Assembly (NCBI GenBank): GCA_018725275.1
Contig: QLUC01000004.1
Location: forward strand, 1-32,549
DNA: 32,549 bases
Source of the DNA: Bacillota bacterium
Lineage (GTDB): Bacteria; Bacillota; UBA994
Direction of reading: 5' to 3'
In this document: positions 64 to 21,543 of the stretch, piece after piece
Numbering within the stretch: the first letter of the stretch is position 1
How the letters are laid out: every line of letters begins with the position of its first letter
Program-made: the position numbers and the translations under genes
The notes under the pieces: generated by a model
Seen by the model: only the letters and a program-made list of their open reading frames with translations
Databases searched by the model: none
What the model was told of the DNA's origin: nothing

Positions 64-414
64 TGGTGGAGGCGGGGGGAGTCGAACCCACCGTCCGAAG
101 ATATGCCTGCCAGCGCTTCTCCGAGTGCAGTCAGCGATTTGGTGATTCGCCCCTTCCTACGCCCACTGACGGGCTGAGGACCTCGCTAGTCTATTGTTTT
201 CGGGAGACTTACTAGACGCTCAGTAACCCTACTCCTGCTTTCATGACGCCAGTGACCGCCCTCGCAGGAAAAGTGCGGGCCGACGACTGCCTAACTAGGC
301 AGCGAACGCTAACTTGTTGTTTGCGTTTGTTTTAGTTTTCCCTGTTTTACGGGTATCAGGACCCCGACTCGCTGCACTGACCAACTCTACCCCCGTCGAA
401 ACCTTTACGCCCCC
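64..414 (-). ncRNA. ssrA: tmRNA (transfer-messenger RNA); tag peptide (A)GKTKTNANNKLAFAA*
   Basis: 5' GGGGGCGTAAAGGTTTCGACGGGGGTAG and 3' GGTTCGACTCCCCCCGCCTCCACCA on minus strand; acceptor stem GGGGGCG/CGCCTCC with the third pair G.U (alanine identity); tag frame GGG AAA ACT AAA ACA AAC GCA AAC AAC AAG TTA GCG TTC GCT GCC TAG at 295-342; adjacent to smpB. Confidence 0.97.
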
Positions 415-418
415 AAAT

Positions 419-901
419 TTATGCCTCGCCTTTTTGGCGAAGACGAAAGGCCTGCTCAATGTCACGCTTGGCTTCTTTATCGGCTTCGGCTTCGCGTTTA
501 TCGTGAACTTTCTTGCCGCGCGCCAAGCCAAGTGCTACTTTTATTTTACCTCTTTTTTGATAAAGTCGCAAGGCCACTAAAGTGTAGCCTTTTTGCATGG
601 TTAGGCCGATAAGGCGGTTTATCTCACGTTTATGCAGGAGTAGCTTTCTTTGACGGCGCGGCTCGTGGTTAAACTGGTTCCCTTGGTCATAGGGGCTGAT
701 ATGGGCATTAATCAGGTAGCACTCGCCGTCAACAATAGCGGCATAGCTGTCCCTCAAGTTGGCTTTGCCCTTCCTGATGGACTTTACCTCGGTGCCGGCC
801 AGAGCTAAGCCCGCTTCATAGGTTTCGTCAATAAAGTAGTCGTGGTAGGCCTTGCGATTGTCGGCAAAAAGTTTTTCTTTGTCTTTTTCTTGTTTAGTCA
901 T
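419..901 (-). CDS. smpB: SsrA-binding protein SmpB
   Basis: 160-aa ORF; ADNRKAYHDYFIDETYEAGLALAGTEVKSIRKGKANLRDSYA is typical SmpB; adjacent to ssrA. Confidence 0.97.
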   Translation of the reverse strand: MTKQEKDKEKLFADNRKAYHDYFIDETYEAGLALAGTEVKSIRKGKANLRDSYAAIVDGECYLINAHISPYDQGNQFNHEPRRQRKLLLHKREINRLIGLTMQKGYTLVALRLYQKRGKIKVALGLARGKKVHDKREAEADKEAKRDIEQAFRLRQKGEA

Positions 902-2456: not shown

Positions 2457-3116
2457 CTAACCGTCTTGGATCATGCCGTCAGCCAGGCGAATTACCCTTT
2501 CGCTCCGGCGGGCTATGTCCATGTTGTGGGTGACGAGGATCACCGTGAGCCCTTGGCGGTGCAAATCGTTAAACAGGGACATGACTTTTTCGCTATTCTT
2601 GCTATCTAGGTTGCCGGTGGGCTCATCGGCCAGCAAAATCTTGGGGCTGTTAATCAGGGCCCTGGCGATGGCCACCCGCTGCATTTCGCCTCCGCTCAGT
2701 TCACGCGGCAGATGGTTGCGGCGAGAACTGAGTCCGACAATCTCTAGTAGGTCTAGGGCTCGGCTTTTACCGGTGGGGTTAAAGAGTAGAGGTAACTCGA
2801 CATTCTCTTTGACGGTCAAGGTGGGGAGCAAGAAAAATTGCTGGAATACAAACCCAATATTCTGTTGGCGCACTTTCACGAGTTGGCTTTCTTGAAGGCC
2901 GGCGACTTCTTGCCCATTTAACAGATAGCTGCCGGAGCTAGGCGTGTCTAAGCAGCCCAAAAGGTTCATGAAGGTAGTCTTGCCGGACCCGGAGGGGCCG
3001 ACCAAGGAAATGAGTTCTCCTTGTTTGACGGTAAGGCTGGCCTCTTGCAGGGCGTGTACTGTCTCGCTACCCCGGTGGTAGTTCTTGCTAAGTTTATCTG
3101 TAACCACGAGGTTCAT
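2457..3116 (-). CDS. ABC transporter ATP-binding protein (MacB/LolD-like)
   Basis: Walker A GPSGSGKTT, signature LSGGEMQRVAIARAL, Walker B ILLADEPTGNLD; start set to ATG 3116 by SD spacing (ORF track begins at 3125). Confidence 0.95.
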   Translation of the reverse strand: MNLVVTDKLSKNYHRGSETVHALQEASLTVKQGELISLVGPSGSGKTTFMNLLGCLDTPSSGSYLLNGQEVAGLQESQLVKVRQQNIGFVFQQFFLLPTLTVKENVELPLLFNPTGKSRALDLLEIVGLSSRRNHLPRELSGGEMQRVAIARALINSPKILLADEPTGNLDSKNSEKVMSLFNDLHRQGLTVILVTHNMDIARRSERVIRLADGMIQDG

Positions 3117-3117
3117 G

Positions 3118-4278
3118 CTATTCACTCCTTATCGCTTCCATGGGACTAAGTTGTGAGGCCCTGATGGCTGGATAGGCTCCGGCCACCAAACCGAGCAACA
3201 AGGCGCTGAAAAGACTGATAAAAACCATCTCGAGGTCGAATACTAAGAGGTCGCCCAGGGGAGCGAAGGGGATTACCCCGCGGATAAGAGGCTCAATTAA
3301 CCTGCCACCTCCAAGGGACGCCAAGATGCCCAGCACGCCGCCCGAAAGAGATAACAAGACGCTTTCAATCCACACGAGCGAGATGATGTCGCTCTGACTG
3401 GCTCCAACTGCCTTCATCATGCCAATTTCACGCGTGCGCTCGAACACCGACATGAGGATGCTATTCATGACCCCCAGCGCACTGATGACCACCGCAATGA
3501 CCACGATCGAATTGATCATGGCCTGGGCAGAACTCATCAAGGTCTGCGCCGTGGCCAAAACCTGCGACATGGTGATAGCCTGGACGTCGGGCAACGATTC
3601 AACGCTGTCCACTACCTGTTGCACCAGGCTCAAATCTTCTAATTGAATGGCGATAGAGGTAACTTTGCCGGCGGCGTTAAAGATTTCTTGCGCTGTCAGC
3701 AACGGCAGGTAGATAAACTGGTCATCCTGAGTGCCTGTTTTTTCGAGCAAGCCGCTGATGACAAACTCTCGCTCGACCCCGGGCAGGCGGTAAATGCCCC
3801 CTATGTCTAAGCCCATCGCCGTGGCCATGACCTCAGGCAAAATAACGGAGTTGGCATCGACAAACATTGTGCCGCGAACGGTCCACCATGGCCTCATAGC
3901 GAAGGATTCTTCGTTCATCCCAAAGATGACGATGTTCTTGCCGTGAGGGATAACTAGCAGGTTCATAAACATGCCCACAGCATTTTGCACATTGGGCATC
4001 TCCCTAATGCGCGCGACATCCTCGACGTTCAAATAGTCCTCAATGACCCCGCCGTGCATAATGAGGGCGGTGGCTTCGTAAGGGCAGCCCTTGGCGATGG
4101 CCAGCATATGGGCGCCTAATCTATTGAGTTCTTGCCGCATCGAGGCCTCGTAGCCCTTACTAAAGGCCATAAAGCTAAAAAGCATAGATATGCCGATAGC
4201 TATCCCGAGGACGGTCAAAAAAGTGCGAAAACGTCGGCGCAAGAGATTCTTCAGCGCTACCTGCAGGTATTTGAACAC
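3118..4278 (-). CDS. ABC transporter permease (MacB/FtsX family)
   Basis: N-terminal TM, extracytoplasmic domain and C-terminal FtsX-type TM block (REIGMMKAVGASQSDIISLVWIESVLLS); GTG 4278 is better spaced from GGAG than the ORF-track start at 4284. Confidence 0.93.
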   Translation of the reverse strand: MFKYLQVALKNLLRRRFRTFLTVLGIAIGISMLFSFMAFSKGYEASMRQELNRLGAHMLAIAKGCPYEATALIMHGGVIEDYLNVEDVARIREMPNVQNAVGMFMNLLVIPHGKNIVIFGMNEESFAMRPWWTVRGTMFVDANSVILPEVMATAMGLDIGGIYRLPGVEREFVISGLLEKTGTQDDQFIYLPLLTAQEIFNAAGKVTSIAIQLEDLSLVQQVVDSVESLPDVQAITMSQVLATAQTLMSSAQAMINSIVVIAVVISALGVMNSILMSVFERTREIGMMKAVGASQSDIISLVWIESVLLSLSGGVLGILASLGGGRLIEPLIRGVIPFAPLGDLLVFDLEMVFISLFSALLLGLVAGAYPAIRASQLSPMEAIRSE

Positions 4279-4296
4279 GGGCACAACTCCTTTTTC

Positions 4297-4313
4297 TACT
4301 ACACACTGTAGTA
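4297..4313. promoter_or_regulatory. Predicted BlaI/MecI-type operator upstream of ABC exporter operon
   Basis: TACTACA-CAC-TGTAGTA, 7-bp arms with 3-bp spacer; overlaps a TATACT -10-like hexamer on the minus strand; same arms as 5977-5993. Confidence 0.75.
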
Positions 4314-4323
4314 TAACGTTCCG

Positions 4324-4343
4324 AAAAAAAGCCCCGCGGGGCT
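4324..4343 (-). terminator. Rho-independent terminator after M56 peptidase gene
   Basis: Minus strand AGCCCCGCGGGGCT followed by TTTTTT; overlaps the M56 stop codon. Confidence 0.85.
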
Positions 4344-5250
4344 AACATAGGCCGAGGATGGTCGAGGACAACAGCGCCAGCAACAGCCACAAGGGCACCA
4401 AAGCAACTTGCCGGTGGTCGCTTAATATAGCCCGAATGCGCCGGGATATTGAGGACGGGCGGTAGAAGTGGCTATGTTGCCAAGCGAAGCAAGAGAGATC
4501 CTGGCCCCGTCGCGCTACCTTGAGAATGGCACCCGCGAGGTCGGTCCCAGTGCAGCGCCCAAGAGATGCATAGTCTGCAGCCATCTCGCGCTCGGCGGCA
4601 TAACTCGCCCACGCCAAGTGGGCAAAGGGTGAAAAAAACGCCAAATCTCGCAGCACATGCACTAAATTATAGACGTTGTCCCCCCCGGCTATGTGCGCGA
4701 GCTCGTGCGCGAGCACTGCCTTTAGCTCTTCATCCCCGAGAAGCTCCAGCAAACCACGCGTCAAGACCAATTCCGGTCGAAACACCCCCCGAACAAAGGC
4801 CATCGGGTAGTGGCTATCGAGCACCGCCACCGTGAGTTCTTCCGTATATCCGAGCTCCGGTAACAATGCATAAACTCGACCGCTATGGAACCGGTCGGTT
4901 ATCTCTCGTCCCAGCTTAGCTCTCTTAGTCGCTACTTGCCAAACACGCCAAGCGACATATCCTATCAAAAGCACTACGGTGAACGGCGCAAGAAATTCGC
5001 TATAGTAAGCTGATAGAGTGCAAATTCGGATGGCACCGGGGGTTCCCACCATGTCGCAACCAGCAGTCATGTGGCGCAAGTAGTAGCTGTAAGTAAACAT
5101 CGGCAAGAGCAAAGCGCTGGCATAAAGCATCATCTTGCTGCGGGGTGCCAGTGGCAACAACATACTGAGGAGCATCGCCCCACTGTAAAGGATCGCGCCA
5201 CTGACGGTGACGTACAGAAGATACGGGGCCACAATTAGCGCAAAATCCAC
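4342..5250 (-). CDS. M56 family (BlaR1/MecR1-like) membrane metallopeptidase lacking a penicillin-binding sensor domain
   Basis: 302-aa multi-TM protein with zinc motif VLAHELAHIAGGDN; follows the BlaI-like gene; ends soon after a C-terminal TM (VALVPLWLLLALLSSTILGLC). Confidence 0.9.
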   Translation of the reverse strand: MDFALIVAPYLLYVTVSGAILYSGAMLLSMLLPLAPRSKMMLYASALLLPMFTYSYYLRHMTAGCDMVGTPGAIRICTLSAYYSEFLAPFTVVLLIGYVAWRVWQVATKRAKLGREITDRFHSGRVYALLPELGYTEELTVAVLDSHYPMAFVRGVFRPELVLTRGLLELLGDEELKAVLAHELAHIAGGDNVYNLVHVLRDLAFFSPFAHLAWASYAAEREMAADYASLGRCTGTDLAGAILKVARRGQDLSCFAWQHSHFYRPSSISRRIRAILSDHRQVALVPLWLLLALLSSTILGLC

Positions 5251-5252
5251 CC

Positions 5253-5684
5253 CTAGCCCCCCCTACGGCGCTTGAGCATCTCTTCAAGTTGCCGCAACTC
5301 CTCGGAACTTACCCTATCAAGACAGGTCGCGAAATGCGACATGGTCTGGGCGGCGTGCGAGGACAGCAAAGCATTGACTACCTCGCCCACGGCCTGCGAC
5401 ACAAATGCCTGGCGAGTGAGGGTCGGGCGATAAAGGTAGGAGTTGCCATCAGCAACCCGTGTCAGCAAACCTTTTTCGGCCAGGCGCGTCATGACCGTCA
5501 TTACGGTGGTATAAGCGAGATCGCGCTTAGGGAGGAGGACATTATGCACCTCACGCACCGTCATCTCTCCGGCAGACCAAACAGCTTCCATAATGTCCGC
5601 CTCCAACTCACCGAGAACCTGCCCTAACCCCGCCCTTTGCGTCCTAAACTCGGGAGCGACCGGACGCTGCGGTCTTACCATCAC
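5253..5684 (-). CDS. BlaI/MecI/CopY family transcriptional repressor
   Basis: LGELEADIMEAVWSAGEMTVREVHNVLLPKRDLAYTTVMTVMTRLAEKGLLTR is the canonical BlaI winged helix. Confidence 0.95.
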   Translation of the reverse strand: MMVRPQRPVAPEFRTQRAGLGQVLGELEADIMEAVWSAGEMTVREVHNVLLPKRDLAYTTVMTVMTRLAEKGLLTRVADGNSYLYRPTLTRQAFVSQAVGEVVNALLSSHAAQTMSHFATCLDRVSSEELRQLEEMLKRRRGG

Positions 5685-5959
5685 TACCTGCCCAGCTCAT
5701 AGAAGCGTCCCTGCCCCGCCCAACCAAGGCGAGTGAGCCTTTGCCCATTTTCCCTAATTTCGATTTCAATATGGCAACCATAATCGATGACTTCGGCCGA
5801 AAGATTTGTTAAGCCTGGGTTTGCCTGCTGATAAAAAGCTAAGGCTTCACGCTCGATCGCAGCAAAGTCCCCGCCAGAGTTCAGATTTTGCCAGTAGTTA
5901 TAACCAAAAAAAGCAACCGCCACAACCAAGACACCAATGAGGATATGAATAGGTTTCAC
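5684..5959 (-). CDS. Small membrane-anchored protein of unknown function, first gene of the BlaI/M56 operon
   Basis: About 91 aa with one N-terminal TM (IHILIGVLVVAVAFFGYNYW); overlaps blaI start; GTG 5959 fits the GGAG Shine-Dalgarno better than ATG 5968. Confidence 0.75.
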   Translation of the reverse strand: MKPIHILIGVLVVAVAFFGYNYWQNLNSGGDFAAIEREALAFYQQANPGLTNLSAEVIDYGCHIEIEIRENGQRLTRLGWAGQGRFYELGR

Positions 5960-5976
5960 TCGACACATCTCCTTCT

Positions 5977-5993
5977 TACTACAACATGTAGTA
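5977..5993. promoter_or_regulatory. Predicted BlaI/MecI-type operator upstream of the blaI-M56 operon
   Basis: TACTACA-ACA-TGTAGTA, arms identical to 4297-4313. Confidence 0.75.
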
Positions 5994-6001
5994 GCTCTAG
6001 C

Positions 6002-8386
6002 TTACTCCTGTACGGGTGGCTTGTAAAGGGGTGCGGTAAGGCCTAGGACCTTGGTGAGAAAAACCTGTACAATCTCCGGATCGAACTGCGTACCGGCATA
6101 CTTGTTCATTTCTATGGCCGCCTCCTGCATACTCATGGCTGGGCGATAGGGTCTATCGCTGGTCATGGCATCAAATGCATCAGCCACGGCGATTACCCTC
6201 GCCATAAATGGTACTCCCTCGCCCTGCAACCCCTTGGGGTAACCGTTGCCATCCCACCGCTCATGGTGGGCGATGATGGCGTCGGCTAGGTTCGCAAACT
6301 CGCTGGCGGTGGACAAAATTCTGTAACCCGTTTCGGGATGCTTTTTGATTTCTCGCCACTCGTCCCCTGTCAGCTGACTCACTTTGTCTAGTACGTGCTT
6401 ATCGGTCGCAATCTTGCCGATATCATGGAGCTCGCCCGCACTGGCCAAGGTCTTGACTTGATCATAGCTTAAACCATAGGCGCTGCCAATCTGTTCGCAA
6501 TACTGGCTCACTCGCTGGGCATGCTCCTCCTCGCTCGGACTCTTCACGAGCAAGGCATTCAGAATGGACTTAATTACCAAACTTCTCTTGCTTTGATGCT
6601 CGACAATCTTCTTCTGGTACATATAGGTCTCCGCATCACTAATAACTTGTGAAAACGAACTATCGGCATTGGTCTTGGCGTCCCAACCGATGGATACCGA
6701 AAGATCTAAGTTCCAGACTTTCTGTTGCTCAATACTCTGCTTCAACCTTCGCGCGAGCTTCTCGGCCTCGCTAACGTCAGTCTTAGGCAGGAGTATGACA
6801 AACTCATCCCCGCCGTACCTCGCAACGATTTCGTCACTGCGGCATTCCTCCCGCAACGAGCTGGCCACTTTCTTTATCACTTCATCCCCTACGGCATGGC
6901 CGAAGGCGTCATTAAATAACTTGAGACCGTTCACATCGATGAGCATGATGGTGATGGGGTAGTTTCTCTCACTGTCTAAACGCCTCAACTCCTCCTCGAA
7001 GAAGCGCCGATTGTAAAGCCCGGTGAGATGGTCATGGTAGCTGAGGTACTCGATTTCTTTTTTCTTGGCATGCTTTTCCGTGCTGTCGCGGAAGACTACC
7101 ACCGAACCGACCATTTGCCCACTGGCATTATGAATTGGAGCCGCCGTATCCTCGATTGGCGTTTCACGGCCGTCTTGAGCGATGAGCAGGGTATGGTTGG
7201 CGAGCTCCACGATGGTTTTAGTGGCAAAAACCTCCTCCACCGGGCACTTAGTCGTCTCTCTGGTGTATTCATTGATGATTCTAAATACCGTTTTAAAATC
7301 CAGCCCAACTGCCTCTTCTTGACTCCAGCCGGTAATGCTCTGCGCAATTGGGTTCATAAGTTCGATTTTGCTATCCCGGTCCGTGGTTATGACCCCATCG
7401 CCCACCGAGATGAGCGTGGCATGGAGCTTTTCGTAGTACTCCCTGATCTTTTCTTCGTTAGCCTTAAGCCTATCCACATCGGTTATAATCCCCTCGATGG
7501 CCTCTACCCGGCCACGGGCCCCGTATACAATCTGCCCACGCTCCGCGACCCATTTCTTAGTGCCATCCTTAGTAATGATAAGATATTCCTCGTCAAAGAC
7601 CGTGCCCTGCTCGATAACCATGGTCCATCTTTCGCGCAGATAGGCCCTAAAGGGATGATCAATGAGACTCTCAAAACTCACCACCGCATTGTTGAGCAAT
7701 GCCTGCGGCTCGTAGCCGGTGATTTGGCCACACCCGTCGCTGACATACTGCATAGTCCAGTGCTCGTCGAAGTTGCATCGATAAACCATGCCCGGGATGT
7801 TGGCCACCAGAGTCGCATGCTTGCGCTCGCTCTCACCCAACAAGGCCTGCTCCTTTCGCGACTTCACCACGAGTCGGTATAGTCTAGCGCTGAGCAGGGC
7901 GAATATCGCCACAAAGAACCAGAGCAAGCCTTGATAGTAAGACCGCAGCCTCGCCTGCTCTTCTGCTAACAAGATGGCCGGGGTAATGTCATTGATGATG
8001 GAGTAGAGCATGGGCCTCCCTTCCGCCAGGAAGGGATACGAAAAAACCTCGACCGTTCTATATTCCCCATTCGCTAGGCGGTGCTGAAAAATGAAGTGGT
8101 TTCTTTTTTGCGCAGCGGCCAGCGCCCTTTCGGCCGCTACCTCTTCGGGGGTCATGGTGTTAATTTGCTGGATAGTCATCGACTCGAGCACTACTTGAGG
8201 AAACCCGTAAAAATTTTGCGCCGCGACGTTTGAAAATTCTATATCCCCAGTGGCAACATCAATAACGAGCATGATTGAACCATGCTCGTTAAAAAGCCTA
8301 AAATAGTCCAGAGGCAAGGAAGCCAGAGCAGTGGCTGGCAACAAGGAAATAATCAGGATGGCGGCTAAGAGGCTGAATTTCTTCAA
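6002..8386 (-). CDS. Sensor protein: TM-flanked PAS, further PAS domains, GGDEF, HD-GYP (c-di-GMP turnover)
   Basis: ARYGGDEFVILLPKTD (GGDEF) and HDIGKI...HHERWDGNGYPKGLQG (HD-GYP); PAS-type repeats; N-terminal signal/TM and a second TM WFFVAIFALLSARLYRLVV. Confidence 0.95.
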   Translation of the reverse strand: MKKFSLLAAILIISLLPATALASLPLDYFRLFNEHGSIMLVIDVATGDIEFSNVAAQNFYGFPQVVLESMTIQQINTMTPEEVAAERALAAAQKRNHFIFQHRLANGEYRTVEVFSYPFLAEGRPMLYSIINDITPAILLAEEQARLRSYYQGLLWFFVAIFALLSARLYRLVVKSRKEQALLGESERKHATLVANIPGMVYRCNFDEHWTMQYVSDGCGQITGYEPQALLNNAVVSFESLIDHPFRAYLRERWTMVIEQGTVFDEEYLIITKDGTKKWVAERGQIVYGARGRVEAIEGIITDVDRLKANEEKIREYYEKLHATLISVGDGVITTDRDSKIELMNPIAQSITGWSQEEAVGLDFKTVFRIINEYTRETTKCPVEEVFATKTIVELANHTLLIAQDGRETPIEDTAAPIHNASGQMVGSVVVFRDSTEKHAKKKEIEYLSYHDHLTGLYNRRFFEEELRRLDSERNYPITIMLIDVNGLKLFNDAFGHAVGDEVIKKVASSLREECRSDEIVARYGGDEFVILLPKTDVSEAEKLARRLKQSIEQQKVWNLDLSVSIGWDAKTNADSSFSQVISDAETYMYQKKIVEHQSKRSLVIKSILNALLVKSPSEEEHAQRVSQYCEQIGSAYGLSYDQVKTLASAGELHDIGKIATDKHVLDKVSQLTGDEWREIKKHPETGYRILSTASEFANLADAIIAHHERWDGNGYPKGLQGEGVPFMARVIAVADAFDAMTSDRPYRPAMSMQEAAIEMNKYAGTQFDPEIVQVFLTKVLGLTAPLYKPPVQE

Positions 8387-10716: not shown

Positions 10717-12051
10717 TTAGGCGATATAACTAGCCAAAGCTCGGGCGAGGACCGCAGCTAAGACCTTTTTGTTGTGCTCTTTTAGGTCGTCGGCAAATTT
10801 GTCCAGCCCGACAACGAAAATGAAGAAGTAAAGAGGAATTTCGCGGCTCGCCTTTAACTCCAACAATGTCTCCTGCCAAGCAAAAAGAGCTTCCTCGCGT
10901 TCTTCGCTTTTTGCGAGACAAATCTTGAGCAAGTGGCGCAGGGGTTTGAAGGTAGCGGTAACTGGGGGCAGTGTCTTGCTCACGGTTCGGGTCGCCAAAC
11001 AACGAAGCCAGTAAAGCACTAGATGCAAGTCCTCGTTCTCGCTCTCACTCGACAAGGCCTCAAGAAAGGTGCGCAAATCCTCATCTTTCGCCCACCTGGC
11101 CAGACCACATTGCAAGATTACCACGGGGTCACGCACCGCGATCGGCATCGGCAGGGAAATTTCGGCTCCTGCTCTCCCCTCGGCTCGTGCCACCGCAAAG
11201 CGGGCGAACTCGCGGGTCAGCTCAGCCCTTTCCGCCAGCGCTGAGTTACTGACCTGTGCGGCGAGAAACTCTACTTCATGGGCCGCGGCCACGAGCTTTG
11301 CTAGGCTGCCTTGCTTGGTCGCTGTGCGCAACATGTTGTGGCCTAAAGTTTCCCATTTGATGTCCATGTCCTCTTGGCAGGCCCGGTACTTAACCGCAAG
11401 AAAAATGGCCCGGCGATGCATTTTCATGGCTTGGTCATAATCCTGCTCTAGGTGAGCGGCAATAGCTAGGTAACGATAACATTCTAAGCAAAGCAAAAGA
11501 TACTTCTGTGGTCGGGCCGCTACCCGCTTTTGCAGGGTGCGCTGAGCAAAACGCAAAAACTTTTGCGCAAGGTCCGCCTGACCTAGCAGACAAGCGCTCT
11601 TGCCGGCAAGTAACTTGGCCTGTGCTAAGGCCATTGGCTGGAGATCATCACCGTGTAAGGCGAGTAGGTGCGTGAGCACCGCCAAGCTGCCGCGGTAATC
11701 CCCGCCCAAAAAGTGCCGCTCCGCCAGCACCACTTGTTCAACAGCCCGGGTCGGCATATCAGGCAGTGGTCTGCCTGTGTATCCCCCGAGAGGTTCAGAT
11801 TCATCCACCGCGGGCCGAGGCGAGTAGAGTCTGCTGGGATGGGCGTGCAGAAGCAAGGATAGACCCTCGATGACCTGCTCCTTGGTGCTCTGCGGCTCGC
11901 TGTCGCCGAGAATGGTCGTGAGATACTGCTTGGACGTACCGAGGAGGCGTGCCGCCTCCGCCACGGTCATATTGTTCTCGGCGAGCAAGGCTCGCACATT
12001 CCCTACCCACGTTGCCTTAAACAAATACCCGCCCCCCTCGCCGTAGAGCAT
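10717..12051 (-). CDS. HTH (XRE-like) transcriptional regulator with helical, TPR-like C-terminal region
   Basis: VRALLAENNMTVAEAARLLGTSKQYLTTILGD is an HTH; the rest is alanine-rich helical repeat. Start codon uncertain. Confidence 0.7.
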   Translation of the reverse strand: MLYGEGGGYLFKATWVGNVRALLAENNMTVAEAARLLGTSKQYLTTILGDSEPQSTKEQVIEGLSLLLHAHPSRLYSPRPAVDESEPLGGYTGRPLPDMPTRAVEQVVLAERHFLGGDYRGSLAVLTHLLALHGDDLQPMALAQAKLLAGKSACLLGQADLAQKFLRFAQRTLQKRVAARPQKYLLLCLECYRYLAIAAHLEQDYDQAMKMHRRAIFLAVKYRACQEDMDIKWETLGHNMLRTATKQGSLAKLVAAAHEVEFLAAQVSNSALAERAELTREFARFAVARAEGRAGAEISLPMPIAVRDPVVILQCGLARWAKDEDLRTFLEALSSESENEDLHLVLYWLRCLATRTVSKTLPPVTATFKPLRHLLKICLAKSEEREEALFAWQETLLELKASREIPLYFFIFVVGLDKFADDLKEHNKKVLAAVLARALASYIA

Positions 12052-13321: not shown

Positions 13322-15400
13322 CTAGACGAATAAAGGAGCGAAAACGAGGGCTACAATGGCCATGAGCTTGATGAGGATGTTCATCGAAGGGCCGGAGGTG
13401 TCCTTGAAAGGATCGCCCACGGTGTCGCCGACGACTGCGGCTTGGTGAGTCGGAGTACCCTTGCCGCCGTATTGACCGCCCTCGATGTACTTTTTGGCAT
13501 TATCCCACGCGCCACCGGCATTGGCCATCATTATAGCCAACAGTACCCCCGTGACTAAGGACCCGGCAAGCAAGCCCCCCAGCGCTTCCTTGCCCAGGAA
13601 GAGGCCGGTAGCCAGCGGTGCAATGACGGCGATTAACCCGGGGATGATCATTTCCTTGAGGGCCGCGGAGGTGCTGATATCGACACAACGGGCATAGTCG
13701 GGGCGTCCCGTGCCCTCCATAATTCCAGGAATCTCTTTAAACTGACGGCGCACTTCGCCAATCATTTGGAAAGCCGCGCGACCGACGGCCTGCATGGTCA
13801 AAGCGGCGAAGAGGAAGGGCAGCATGCCCCCCAAGAACAGCCCGATAATGACATCGGAAGATAGAATATTAATGGTTGTGAGCTGCACCACCGTGGCATA
13901 GGCCGAGAACAAGGCCAGTGCCGTGAGCGCTGCCGAGCCGATGGCAAAACCCTTGCCGATAGCGGCGGTGGTGTTACCGACGGCGTCGAGGTTGTCGGTT
14001 ATCTTGCGCACAGATTTGTCCAGGCCGGCCATTTCGGCGATGCCGCCGGCGTTATCGGCGATTGGACCATAGGCGTCTACCGCCACCACCATGCCGGTCG
14101 TGGCCAACATGCCCACCGCGGCAATGGCAATGCCCAAGAGTCCGGCGAAATAAACGGAGATAGAGATGGCAATGGCGATGACGATTATGGGCGCGGCAGT
14201 GCTGAGCATGCCTACCGCCAGACCGGTGATGATTGTAGTCGCCGGGCCGGTTTGGGCGGCAGCGGCAATGCTCTGTACGGGCTTATTCTCACTCGAAGTG
14301 TAGTACTCGGTGATTTGTCCGATAGCCACGCCCGCTACTAAACCGGCCACTACAGCGTAGAAGACGCCAATATCTACGTTCAAGAAGCGAATCATCGCGA
14401 AAGCCCCGGCCACAGTAAGGGCCCCGGCGACATAGGTGCCATTGCTTAAGGCGCGCTGCACATTCGCACCCTCGCGGGCGGTGACAAAACGCGAGCCGAT
14501 GATCGAGGCGATGATGCCAATGCCGGCTAAAAGCAGGGGCACTAAGACTGCATGCCAAGGGTTGTCCCGGAGAGGATTAGTTGCTAGGGGGACGATGCCT
14601 ATGGCCATAGCCGCCACTATTGAACCGACATAGGATTCAAAGAGATCGGCACCCATGCCCGCCACGTCACCGACATTATCGCCGACATTGTCCGCGATAA
14701 CGGCGGGGTTTCTTGGGTCGTCTTCGGGAATACCGGCTTCGACCTTACCTACCAAGTCAGCACCGACATCGGCGGCCTTGGTGTAGATACCGCCGCCCAC
14801 ACGCGCAAAGAGGGCAATGGAGCTCGCGCCCAAGGCAAAGCCATTGACCATGGAGAGTAGCACGGTGAAAGCACCGGTGGGGCTGGCGTCAATGGCCGCA
14901 CAAGCGGGGCAATGCGCCAAGGGGTCTAGGATGACCATGCCGGCATGGACAATACGAAATGCTATGAAGAGAACGCTGATACCGATTAACCCGAGCCCGA
15001 CCACCGACATGCCCATGACGGCACCGCCGGAAAAGGCCACGGCAAGAGCTTTATTCTGCCCATGCTGGGCGGCGGCGGCGGTGCGCACATTGGCTTTCGT
15101 GGCCACCGTCATGCCAATGTATCCGGCAAGCATCGAGCTCGCCGCGCCATATAGGAAGGCTACAGCCGTAGATAGATTGATTTGCCAGGCAATAGCGATA
15201 AACAATACCAAAACAAATATAGCCAAACTCTTGTATTCTCGGCGTAAAAAAGCCATCGCACCCTCTTGAATGGCCTGGGCTATTTCTTTCATGCGTGAAT
15301 TTCCGGCATCTTGGCGAGTAACTTGATCTGCCAAAAACCACGCAAACAACAGCGCCAGCACGCCCGCCGCGGGAGCTGACCAGAGTAACAACTCTTCCAT
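13322..15400 (-). CDS. hppA: Membrane-bound (V-type) ion-translocating pyrophosphatase, K+-dependent type
   Basis: [20 protein letters not shown] and [27 protein letters not shown]; Ala in GNTTAA is the K+-dependent signature. Confidence 0.96.
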
Positions 15401-15771: not shown

Positions 15772-18573
<2,802 letters not shown>

Positions 18574-18581
<8 letters not shown>

Positions 18582-19341
18582 AGGTCTTGCTCCCCGCAAG
18601 GCTGGCAATTTGGGCGAAGCTTTCGCCCTTTAAGCTCACCCCGCCAGCGAGAACTCCGCCAACAAACTCCGCTGCCAAGAAACCAGCCGCATTCTCGGGG
18701 GTGACGCTCCCACCATAGAGCAGCCGCACTTGCCCCGCCGGCACCTTGTTACGCGCCAGTTGGTAGATTGCCCTGAGCATTGCAGAAGCCTGCAAAGGGG
18801 TTGCAGCCTGCCCTGTACCGATGGCCCAGATCGGCTCATAGGCAATGGCAATTTCTTTGACCTCTCCCTCAAGGAGGGACAACCCCGCCATAAGCTGCGC
18901 GAGGACATAGTCTTCGCCCCGATTAGCACGGCGCGTGGCGAGTTCCTCCCCTACGCAGAGCACTGGGGTTAGACCATGCCTCACTGTGGCCGCCACTTTT
19001 ATGGCGACAGAGGCATCGTTCTCGCCAAAATACTGCCGCCGCTCCGAGTGCCCCACGAGGACATACTGACAACCCATTTCTTTAAGCATGGGCAGAGAAA
19101 CCTCGCCGGTGTAAGCGCCGCTGTCCTCGTGGTACACATCTTGCGCGCCGAGTTTGATCTCGGTTGCGGCAAGCAAGCTGCCGACATGAGATAACAGGGT
19201 AAATGGCGGGCAAATGCACAAATCCACCTCGCCTTGCGCATCTAGCGCACTCTGGATGCTCCGGATGAGTGCTTCGCTCCCTTTGAGCGAGCCGTTCATT
19301 TTCCAGTTGCCGATAATTAAAGGCCGGCCCAAACTATTCAC
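18574..19341 (-). CDS. tpiA: Triosephosphate isomerase
   Basis: IGNWKMNGS, VGHSERR, AYEPIWAIGTG, LYGGSVTPEN. Confidence 0.98.
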
Positions 19342-20533
19342 CTCGGCCAGCCTTTTCGGTCAGGGCGGCCACGCCAGGCAACACCTTACCCTCAAGGAAC
19401 TCGAGCGATGCGCCGCCACCGGTGGAGATATGAGTCATTTTTTCTGCCAGCCCCGCCTGTTCGACGGCCGCGGCACTGTCCCCCCCACCTACAACCGTGA
19501 CCGCGCCGGAGCCAGCCAATGCCTCCGCAACATCGAAGGTGCCCACCGCAAAAGCGGGGTTCTCAAAAACCCCCATGGGGCCATTCCACAGTACCAAGCG
19601 GGCAGCAAGAACGACCTTGGCAAATTGCTCAGCGGACCTTGGGCCAATATCCACAATCATCTTGTCCGGCGGTATATCCGCTACCGCGACAATAGTCCCA
19701 GAATCATCAGAGATTGCATCGGCGACCACTACGTCCTCGGGCAAGTAAATGCTGATATGCGCCCTCTCCGCCATATCCAAGAGCTCCGCAGCCAGCTCCA
19801 AGCGCTCCGATTCTACTAAGGACTTGCCGATTTCGTACCCCTTGGCCTTGAGGAAGGTGTTGGCCATGCCGCCCCCGATAATGAGGCTATCGACGCGAGT
19901 GAGTAGCTGCTCGATGACCTTTATTTTGTCGGAGACCTTGGCCCCACCCAAGATGGCGAGGAAGGGGCGCCGCGGATTTTCTAGCACGCCGCCAAGAAAA
20001 TCCAGTTCCTTTTGCATGAGCAGCCCTGCCACCGCAGGTTTGAGAAACTGCGTAACGCCAGACACCGAAGCGTGGGCGCGATGGGCGGCCCCGAAAGCGT
20101 CGTTAACGTAGATCTCGGCAAGCTTGGCTAGCTCGGCCGCAAAAGCAAGGTCATTCTTTTCTTCTTGGGCGTGAAAACGCAAATTCTCAAGGAGCACCAC
20201 CTCGCCATCGGCCAGGCGCAGGGTGGCAGCCAGCACTTCCTCACCAATGCAGTCGGGGAGGAGGCGCACCTCCTGCCCAAGTAGCGACGAGAGGCGAGCT
20301 GCGACCGGGGCCAGACTGTAACGCAGGTCCCGCTTGCCGCTGGGCCGGCCAAAGTGGCTCGCCAAAACGACCTTCGCCTTTTTCTCGCGCAAGTGCAGAA
20401 TGGTCGGCAGCGCCGCCCTAATGCGGGTGTCGTCGGTAATCCGCCCCATTTCGTCCAAGGGCACATTAAAGTCGACCCGCACCAAGACGCGTTTGCCGGC
20501 AACGGCAATATCTTTAATGCTGAGTTTAGCCAT
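19334..20533 (-). CDS. pgk: Phosphoglycerate kinase
   Basis: RVDFNVPLD, SHFGRPSG, VVGGGDSAAAVEQ; start at MAKLSIKD (ORF track extends to 20602, overlapping gap). Confidence 0.98.
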   Translation of the reverse strand: MAKLSIKDIAVAGKRVLVRVDFNVPLDEMGRITDDTRIRAALPTILHLREKKAKVVLASHFGRPSGKRDLRYSLAPVAARLSSLLGQEVRLLPDCIGEEVLAATLRLADGEVVLLENLRFHAQEEKNDLAFAAELAKLAEIYVNDAFGAAHRAHASVSGVTQFLKPAVAGLLMQKELDFLGGVLENPRRPFLAILGGAKVSDKIKVIEQLLTRVDSLIIGGGMANTFLKAKGYEIGKSLVESERLELAAELLDMAERAHISIYLPEDVVVADAISDDSGTIVAVADIPPDKMIVDIGPRSAEQFAKVVLAARLVLWNGPMGVFENPAFAVGTFDVAEALAGSGAVTVVGGGDSAAAVEQAGLAEKMTHISTGGGASLEFLEGKVLPGVAALTEKAGRGE

Positions 20534-20535
20534 GA

Positions 20536-21543
20536 CTATACCTGTGCATAGTGGTCGGCGATGAGGGACAATACATCGACCATACGGCAGGAGAAACCCC
20601 ATTCATTGTCATACCAAGCGCATACCTTGGCCATGTTCTCGCCGATAACCATGGTTAGGGCTAGGTCGATGATGGAGGAGCGAGGGTCCCCCACATAGTC
20701 AACCGAAACTAAGGGTTCATCGCTAACTCCGAGGATGCCCTTCATGGGTCCATCGGCGGCAGCCCTAAAGGCAGCGTTAATCTGCTCGGCGGTCGCCGGC
20801 CTCGCCAGTTCCACGGTCAAATCTACCACGGATACGGTGGTGGTGGGCACACGCAAGGCAAAACCATTGAGTTTGCCCTTGAGCTCCGGCAGAACGAGCC
20901 CTATGGCCTTCGCCGCGCCGGTGGTGGAGGGGATGATAGACTGACTGGCAGTGCGGGCGCGACGCAAATCAGAGTGGATCTGATCGAGAATGCTTTGGTC
21001 GTTGGTGAAGGCATGGATCGTGTTCATAAGACCCTTGACGATACCAAATTCATCGCTCAGCACCTTGGCCATGGGGCCGAGACCATTGGTCGTACAAGAG
21101 GCATTCGAAATAATATGGTGTTTGGCATGATCATACTTGTCCTGGTTACAGCCGAGGACCAAAGTTAGGTCCTCGCCGGTAGCGGGAGAACTAATGAGCA
21201 CTTTCTTTGCTCCCGCTGTGATGTGTTTGCCGGCGGTGTCACGCTCTTTGAATTTACCGCTACACTCTACAACCACATCGACCGCCATTTCACCCCAGGG
21301 CAAGCGCAGAGGGTCTTTCTCGGCCAACACCTTGATGAAACGACCATCGACCACGATGCCTCCCTCGCCAAGGGAGACCTCCGCGTCAAAACGGCCATAG
21401 TTAGAGTCATACTTGAGTAAGTGGGCCAGCCCTTTAGCGTCAGCTAAGTCGTTGATGGCTACAATCTCTAGGTCGCTCCGTTGGTGAGCTATGCGAAACA
21501 CCTGACGTCCAATCCGCCCAAACCCATTGATGGCTATTTTCAT
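20536..21543 (-). CDS. gap: Glyceraldehyde-3-phosphate dehydrogenase, type I
   Basis: [43 protein letters not shown]. Confidence 0.98.

Follow-up and report, generated by a model that had tools for sequence, protein, structure and literature searches.

Two matching operators link a BlaI/M56 repressor-protease pair to an FtsX/ABC cassette in a Bacillota genome: a proposed variant of BlaR1/BlaI that responds to metals or thiols through cysteines

The window, i.e. the whole stretch of DNA analysed here, comprises 32,549 nucleotides of contig QLUC01000004.1 (assembly GCA_018725275.1) from a Bacillota bacterium of the UBA994 lineage. It holds a minus-strand locus in which genes for a BlaI-family repressor and a BlaR1-type M56 protease lie beside an FtsX/ABC (ATP-binding cassette) gene cassette. 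The locus begins with a gene for a small membrane-anchored protein with an N-terminal transmembrane (TM) helix (5684..5968; 94 aa), followed by blaI (5253..5684; PF03965, 7.6e-32), the M56 gene (4342..5250; 302 aa; PF05569, 8.3e-18; HELAH zinc motif), a gene for a MacB/FtsX-type permease (3118..4284; 388 aa; MacB_PCD and FtsX) and the gene for the MacB/LolD/FtsE-like ABC ATPase of the cassette (2457..3125). BlaI is the only PF03965 protein above the cut-off in the genome, in which one further match lies below it, and the M56 protein is present as a single copy. The initial annotation had described a BlaI-family repressor and an M56 protease without a penicillin-binding sensor domain, and both descriptions were upheld, the M56 chain ending at residue 302, at the last TM helix, with no C-terminal sensor domain. 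Similarly, it had noted no beta-lactamase; none is present at the locus, the class A family PF13354 has no match in the genome, and one PF00144-type hydrolase is encoded on another contig without an operator.

The window's family comprises eight genomes, one of them the window's own, and seven of these, again including the window's, carry the M56 gene; the M56 proteins of the relatives are 38-96% identical to that of the window. In all seven genomes the order is small protein, BlaI, M56, permease and ATPase, with lysS downstream, while the eighth has neither the operon nor an operator site. The closest relative is the Peptococcaceae metagenome-assembled genome (MAG) JAGXSS01, isolate CROMO_A_245, and a further member is the Bacillota MAG QLUS01, HKB212; these sample names suggest serpentinising, alkaline waters as the source.

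Two copies of the same dyad stand ahead of the two gene units. Operator 1 (5977..5993; TACTACATGTTGTAGTA on the minus strand) lies between the blaI-unit promoter and the Shine-Dalgarno sequence of the small-protein gene, and operator 2 (4297..4313; TACTACAGTGTGTAGTA on the minus strand) lies directly upstream of the Shine-Dalgarno sequence of the permease gene. The 17-mers as located are TACTACACACTGTAGTA at 4297-4313 and TACTACAACATGTAGTA at 5977-5993, exactly the TACTACA-N3-TGTAGTA sites of the initial annotation, which had also proposed a genome-wide motif scan and a comparison of synteny in relatives as checks. In the scan, these two sites were the only exact matches in the 1.74-Mb genome and the reversed-pattern control gave 0; moreover, 100 shuffles of the window gave a mean of 0.40 matches with at most three mismatches to the dyad. 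In relatives, the 17-bp dyad was found at both positions in 7/7 operon-bearing family genomes despite diverged surrounding DNA, and genome scans with TACTAY-N5-GTAGTA recovered both sites in each of the seven with at most one stray site apiece. Thus, the conserved core is TACTAY-N5-GTAGTA. The TACA/TGTA dyad, previously taken as the core, is present in the window and broken in genomes G003-G005 and G007, in which the inner A/T varies, and was rejected as the conserved part. A single exact site in genome G008 was set aside as a chance match; no operon relative lies near it. We conclude that the two-operator tie between the BlaI/M56 unit and the ABC operon is well supported at the level of sequence; binding of BlaI to the two sites is a prediction.

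Relatives of the small protein were found with its profile (A1) in 25 of 399 genomes of the phylum, and BlaI, M56 and FtsX/ABC genes are neighbours again in 14 genomes outside the family. Two distant forms of the locus are BlaI-M56-[operator]-DUF2318-small-FtsX-ABC-FtsX and [tandem operators]-small-FtsX-ABC-OB-fold protein-BlaI-M56. The DUF2318 partner (PF10080) stands next to M56 in many genomes, and further M56-DUF2318 loci, in some of which no small protein is recognisable, were gathered by searches with PF05569 and PF10080. Dyads were counted in 25 loci from outside the window's family with BlaI/M56 beside FtsX/ABC, usually with DUF2318, a dyad being scored when at least 9 of the 10 arm bases of TACTA-N7-TAGTA matched. 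The windows around BlaI or exporter promoters (16.7 kb) contained 46 dyads and the remaining 256 kb contained 11, a count that overstates the number of separate events because some of the 25 loci share a genus; in 29 permutations of the arms, the in-window number had a mean of 0.7 and a maximum of 3. In two loci, three overlapping dyads in a 15-bp register precede the small-protein gene (L135, 4966-5012; L136, 5152-5198), as if several BlaI dimers bound side by side. In two others (L143 and L242), an OmpR-type response regulator and a histidine kinase take the place of BlaI/M56 next to the same DUF2318-FtsX/ABC cassette. A search of the openly accessible literature found no paper that joins BlaI/M56 to DUF2318 or to an FtsX/ABC cassette.

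The blaI-unit promoter (5999..6027, minus strand) consists of a -35 TTTACA (6022-6027), a 17-bp spacer and a -10 TAAGCT (5999-6004), and it ends 5 bp ahead of operator 1; a good -35/-10 pair ends 5-8 bp ahead of operator 1 in 7/7 family genomes. At operator 2, the overlap with a -10-like TATACT on the minus strand (4310..4315 in plus-strand numbering) reported by the initial annotation is real, but this hexamer lacks a matching -35, and in 7/7 family genomes operator 2 has no -35 and at most a -10-like hexamer. A candidate intrinsic terminator (4324..4343, minus strand; AGCCCCGCGGGGCT and a T run), with its stem at 4330-4343 and the T run adjoining, lies directly after the M56 stop codon. A terminator-like hairpin is present only in the three members of the window's genus and missing from the other four family genomes, and the hairpin folds no better than shuffled sequences (z = 0.48); an intrinsic terminator between the units is plausible but weak. 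The earlier argument that a terminator separates the units and that operator 2 marks an independent promoter holds only within the genus, the promoter half of it being weak there as well. Alternatively, operator 2 might be a roadblock to read-through from promoter 1 without any promoter of its own, which would be compatible with the other readings. The missing -35 in 7/7 genomes and the missing terminator in 4/7 fit such a roadblock, as do loci in which the exporter genes directly follow M56 (e.g. L215 and L217-L220) and only the BlaI operator is present, as expected of one operon. The TATACT overlapping operator 2 in the window and in locus L018, with a terminator-like hairpin ahead of it, argues for a separate promoter, and on balance we find the roadblock somewhat doubtful.

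The M56 proteins of these operons carry a feature that is as constant as their catalytic site. Among 20 such proteins, which are 20-96% identical to that of the window, 12 columns are invariant (P50, C65, C77, H182, E183, H186, F206, E222, D226, K244, R271 and C302); these include the HExxH...E residues of the zinc protease (H182, E183, H186 and E222), and C65, C77 and C302 are conserved to the same degree (20/20). C65 and C77 lie in the extracellular loop between TM2 and TM3, which has a known signalling role in BlaR1; C302 is the final residue. Because the profile alignment to BlaR1 runs to about BlaR1 residue 322, just short of the sensor domain, C302 falls at the point where that domain would start. 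A cysteine as last residue was found in none of the 76 outside M48/M56 relatives used as controls, which came from a broad M56 scan and were for the most part M48-like proteases or more remote M56 proteins, and in none of six BlaI-M56 pairs without a cassette. The window itself holds the full set of features tested for, i.e. BlaI, a Cys-ended M56 protein, an FtsX/ABC cassette and dyads of the TACTA-N7-TAGTA type. The structure model of the M56 protein (predicted local distance difference test (pLDDT) 74, predicted template modelling score 0.72) was used for secondary structure only. Among BlaI-M56 pairs without an adjoining cassette, one locus (L226; G025 C25:565001-574000) encodes a Cys-ended M56 protein, and its genome also holds the full circuit elsewhere; two others (L227 and L229) have adjoining CACTAC-N5-GTAGTG-like dyads and M56 proteins that are not Cys-ended.

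In BlaR1/BlaI, BlaI represses from dyads, and M56, responding to a cell-wall drug, cuts BlaI between N101 and F102 and itself between S283 and F284 (PMC9834060). The window resembles BlaR1/BlaI and MecR1/MecI in its winged-helix BlaI repressor (the profile matches 1sd4 and 1okr), in its M56 zinc protease, the profile of which matches S. aureus BlaR1 8exp from TM3 to TM4 including the protease domain (4.6e-12), and in its dyads ahead of both its own operon and the target operon. Moreover, the cut-site positions align, with H117-F118 or L118 of BlaI at the S. aureus N101-F102 site and S260 of M56 at the BlaR1 autocleavage site; this alignment keeps the cleavage reading open and is not proof of it. 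By contrast, the window has outer-face cysteines instead of a penicillin-binding sensor, its target is an FtsX/ABC cassette and not a beta-lactamase, and its operator core is TACTAY-N5-GTAGTA. The part that is new relative to BlaR1/BlaI is the outer face. By analogy with the known families, BlaI would repress both units and proteolysis would derepress them, and derepression of the ABC unit via BlaI cleavage would be the natural reading of the arrangement. The BlaI regulons of the clostridial bacterium C. thermocellum (Clo1313_0696 and Clo1313_1845) are likewise tiny BlaI/BlaR1 circuits with 6-5-6 inverted repeats; however, their half-site is GTCTAT, and the part of the published account consulted gives BlaR1-like and hypothetical genes as their targets and describes no ABC cassette (PMC8457756).

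A metal could also be sensed inside the cell, with BlaI acting as a CopY-type sensor and M56 as an accessory. CopY_TcrY is the best NCBIfam match of BlaI, and CopY/CopA likewise pairs a BlaI-superfamily repressor with a transporter downstream of it and, possibly, with a metal signal. However, the match reaches 69.8 bits against an equivalog cut-off of 121.95, the BlaI sequence lacks the CxCx4CxC tail of CopY, and its alignment contains no conserved cysteine; furthermore, a protease is involved here and the transporter is of the FtsX/ABC type instead of a P-type ATPase. We consider intracellular sensing by BlaI very improbable.

Outer-face cysteines recur in the other membrane proteins of the locus. 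For the small protein, the alignment favours a GTG start at 5957-5959, giving 91 aa, and the TM helix is followed by an extracytoplasmic helix and four strands. Its C65 lies in an invariant YGCH motif, of which GCH is kept in distant relatives too. Neither Pfam nor NCBIfam gave a significant match to the small proteins, and a model (pLDDT 78) compared with the PDB by Foldseek had a best E-value of 0.75 and gave no fold assignment. The permease of the window has a single cysteine, C67, in the KGCPYEA motif of its periplasmic core domain; this cysteine is kept in 10/10 window-type permeases, and in DUF2318 cassettes the first permease has CxxCP. The ATPase and permease differ from MacAB in being separate open reading frames with no MacA adaptor gene adjoining. 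The label exporter is a family-based guess, since some ABC units of the FtsX/MacB type do their work at the outer face and no substrate crosses the membrane.

The small protein could also be a subunit of the exporter that holds M56 inactive, perhaps through a C302-C65 disulfide, and lets go when engaged by substrate or by the exporter, so that its release would report exporter load. The outer cysteines in both partners are in line with this, as are the conservation of the small protein, which is at least that of BlaI and clearly greater than that of M56, and its gene position, which is ahead of the permease in the majority of distant loci and beside blaI in the window's family. Nevertheless, six loci (L215, L217-L219, L224 and L225) contain no recognisable small protein despite a Cys-ended M56 and the cassette, and we give this coupling only an outside chance.

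Distant relatives of the locus resemble FetABCD of C. jejuni (fetMP-fetABCDEF), in which DUF2318, FtsX, ABC and FtsX components are also combined and extracytoplasmic CxxC residues are also present; C. jejuni requires fetABCD to grow normally when iron is scarce (PMC10783030). The window differs from FetABCDEF in lacking DUF2318, in having a single permease and ATPase, in having no FTR1/P19 in the operon and no thioredoxins, and in being controlled by BlaI/M56 where the campylobacter genes are controlled by Fur. Moreover, compared with Fet-type Bacillota loci, the BlaI-linked cassettes score far higher among themselves. In gut Firmicutes, DUF2318 genes belong to an inferred CsoR copper meta-regulon (PMC4938975). 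Taken together, these accounts of DUF2318 are in keeping with a metal or thiol role, though not with a single metal. By eye, one DUF2318 cassette is divergent from ZnuABC-like genes (L238) and one DUF2318 gene follows a gene for an HMA-containing protein (L243).

DUF2318 itself carries conserved outer cysteines, and the outer cysteines of the protease, the small protein and the permease together with this distant partner suggest a thiophilic metal or thiol redox as the signal. The initial annotation had instead proposed that M56 senses an envelope or peptide signal. Spelled out, M56 or the small protein would detect cell-wall damage or an antimicrobial peptide, and the MacB-like ABC unit would export or dislodge it. 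MacB/FtsX/LolD-type ABC systems often handle peptides, lipoproteins or the cell wall, and the response of BlaR1/BlaI to a drug of the last kind is a precedent. However, neither a peptide-binding nor a penicillin-binding domain is present, and among the genes adjoining the cassette in the listed loci none was recognised by eye as serving peptide biosynthesis or as encoding an adaptor or immunity protein. The conserved feature is cysteine, and the recurrent partner is DUF2318. This proposal was therefore not borne out, and we regard it as unlikely.

The reading we prefer, at a probability of roughly 0.55, is that the locus works like BlaR1/BlaI, responds to metals or thiols through cysteines and controls an FtsX/ABC cassette. 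In this scheme, BlaI would occupy operator 1, over the region where its own operon starts, and operator 2, and both units would be repressed. A change in the extracytoplasmic cysteines, either binding of a thiophilic metal (copper or similar) or formation or reduction of a disulfide, would activate M56, the sensing residues being M56 C65, C77 and C302, possibly with C65 of the small protein. Cleavage of BlaI by active M56 would then turn on the regulator unit together with the cassette, which is a relative of the DUF2318-FtsX-ABC cassettes and has an outer-face cysteine of its own. Several observations weigh against this scheme, besides the missing -35 at operator 2. DUF2318 (PF10080) has no match in the window's own genome or in its whole family and the metal link is therefore indirect there, inferred from the cysteines and from the shared ancestry of regulator and cassette; the metals named for DUF2318 in the literature disagree (copper versus iron); a C77-like cysteine also occurs in the six BlaI-M56 pairs without a cassette, so that C77 alone is not specific and some of the cysteines may simply form a structural disulfide; and the wider set has exceptions, one locus having a single cysteine before HExxH (L217) and another an M56 protein that ends in ...VVCQF (L220). 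The most tentative parts of the scheme are the signal, the substrate and what the small protein does.

A transfer-messenger RNA gene (tag ANNKLAFAA; 64-414, minus strand) adjoins smpB (419-901, minus strand) and lysS comes next, which places the circuit between ssrA-smpB-lysS and an HD-GYP/rnr block. Adjoining rnr is a 444-aa open reading frame without a Pfam match (10717-12051, minus strand). Farther along, a gene for an H+-pyrophosphatase (13322-15400) lies near a glycolytic run encoding GAPDH, PGK, TIM, iPGM and enolase (15772-21543, minus strand).

BlaI/M56 pairs commonly occur with no beta-lactamase. For one such group, a target can be named here (the FtsX/ABC cassette), along with its operator code (TACTAY-N5-GTAGTA) and, as the candidate site of sensing, the three invariant cysteines. 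More tentatively, at a little short of even odds, the group may represent a widespread class of Bacillota BlaR1-type receptors in which a three-cysteine extracellular site replaces the beta-lactam sensor, reads extracytoplasmic metal or thiol redox and, through BlaI cleavage, switches on the cassette, sometimes assisted by a small detachable GCH protein. If so, metals or redox would join antibiotics among the signals that protease receptors read, and there would be a physiological handle on the DUF2318/FtsX/ABC cassettes, which are poorly understood.

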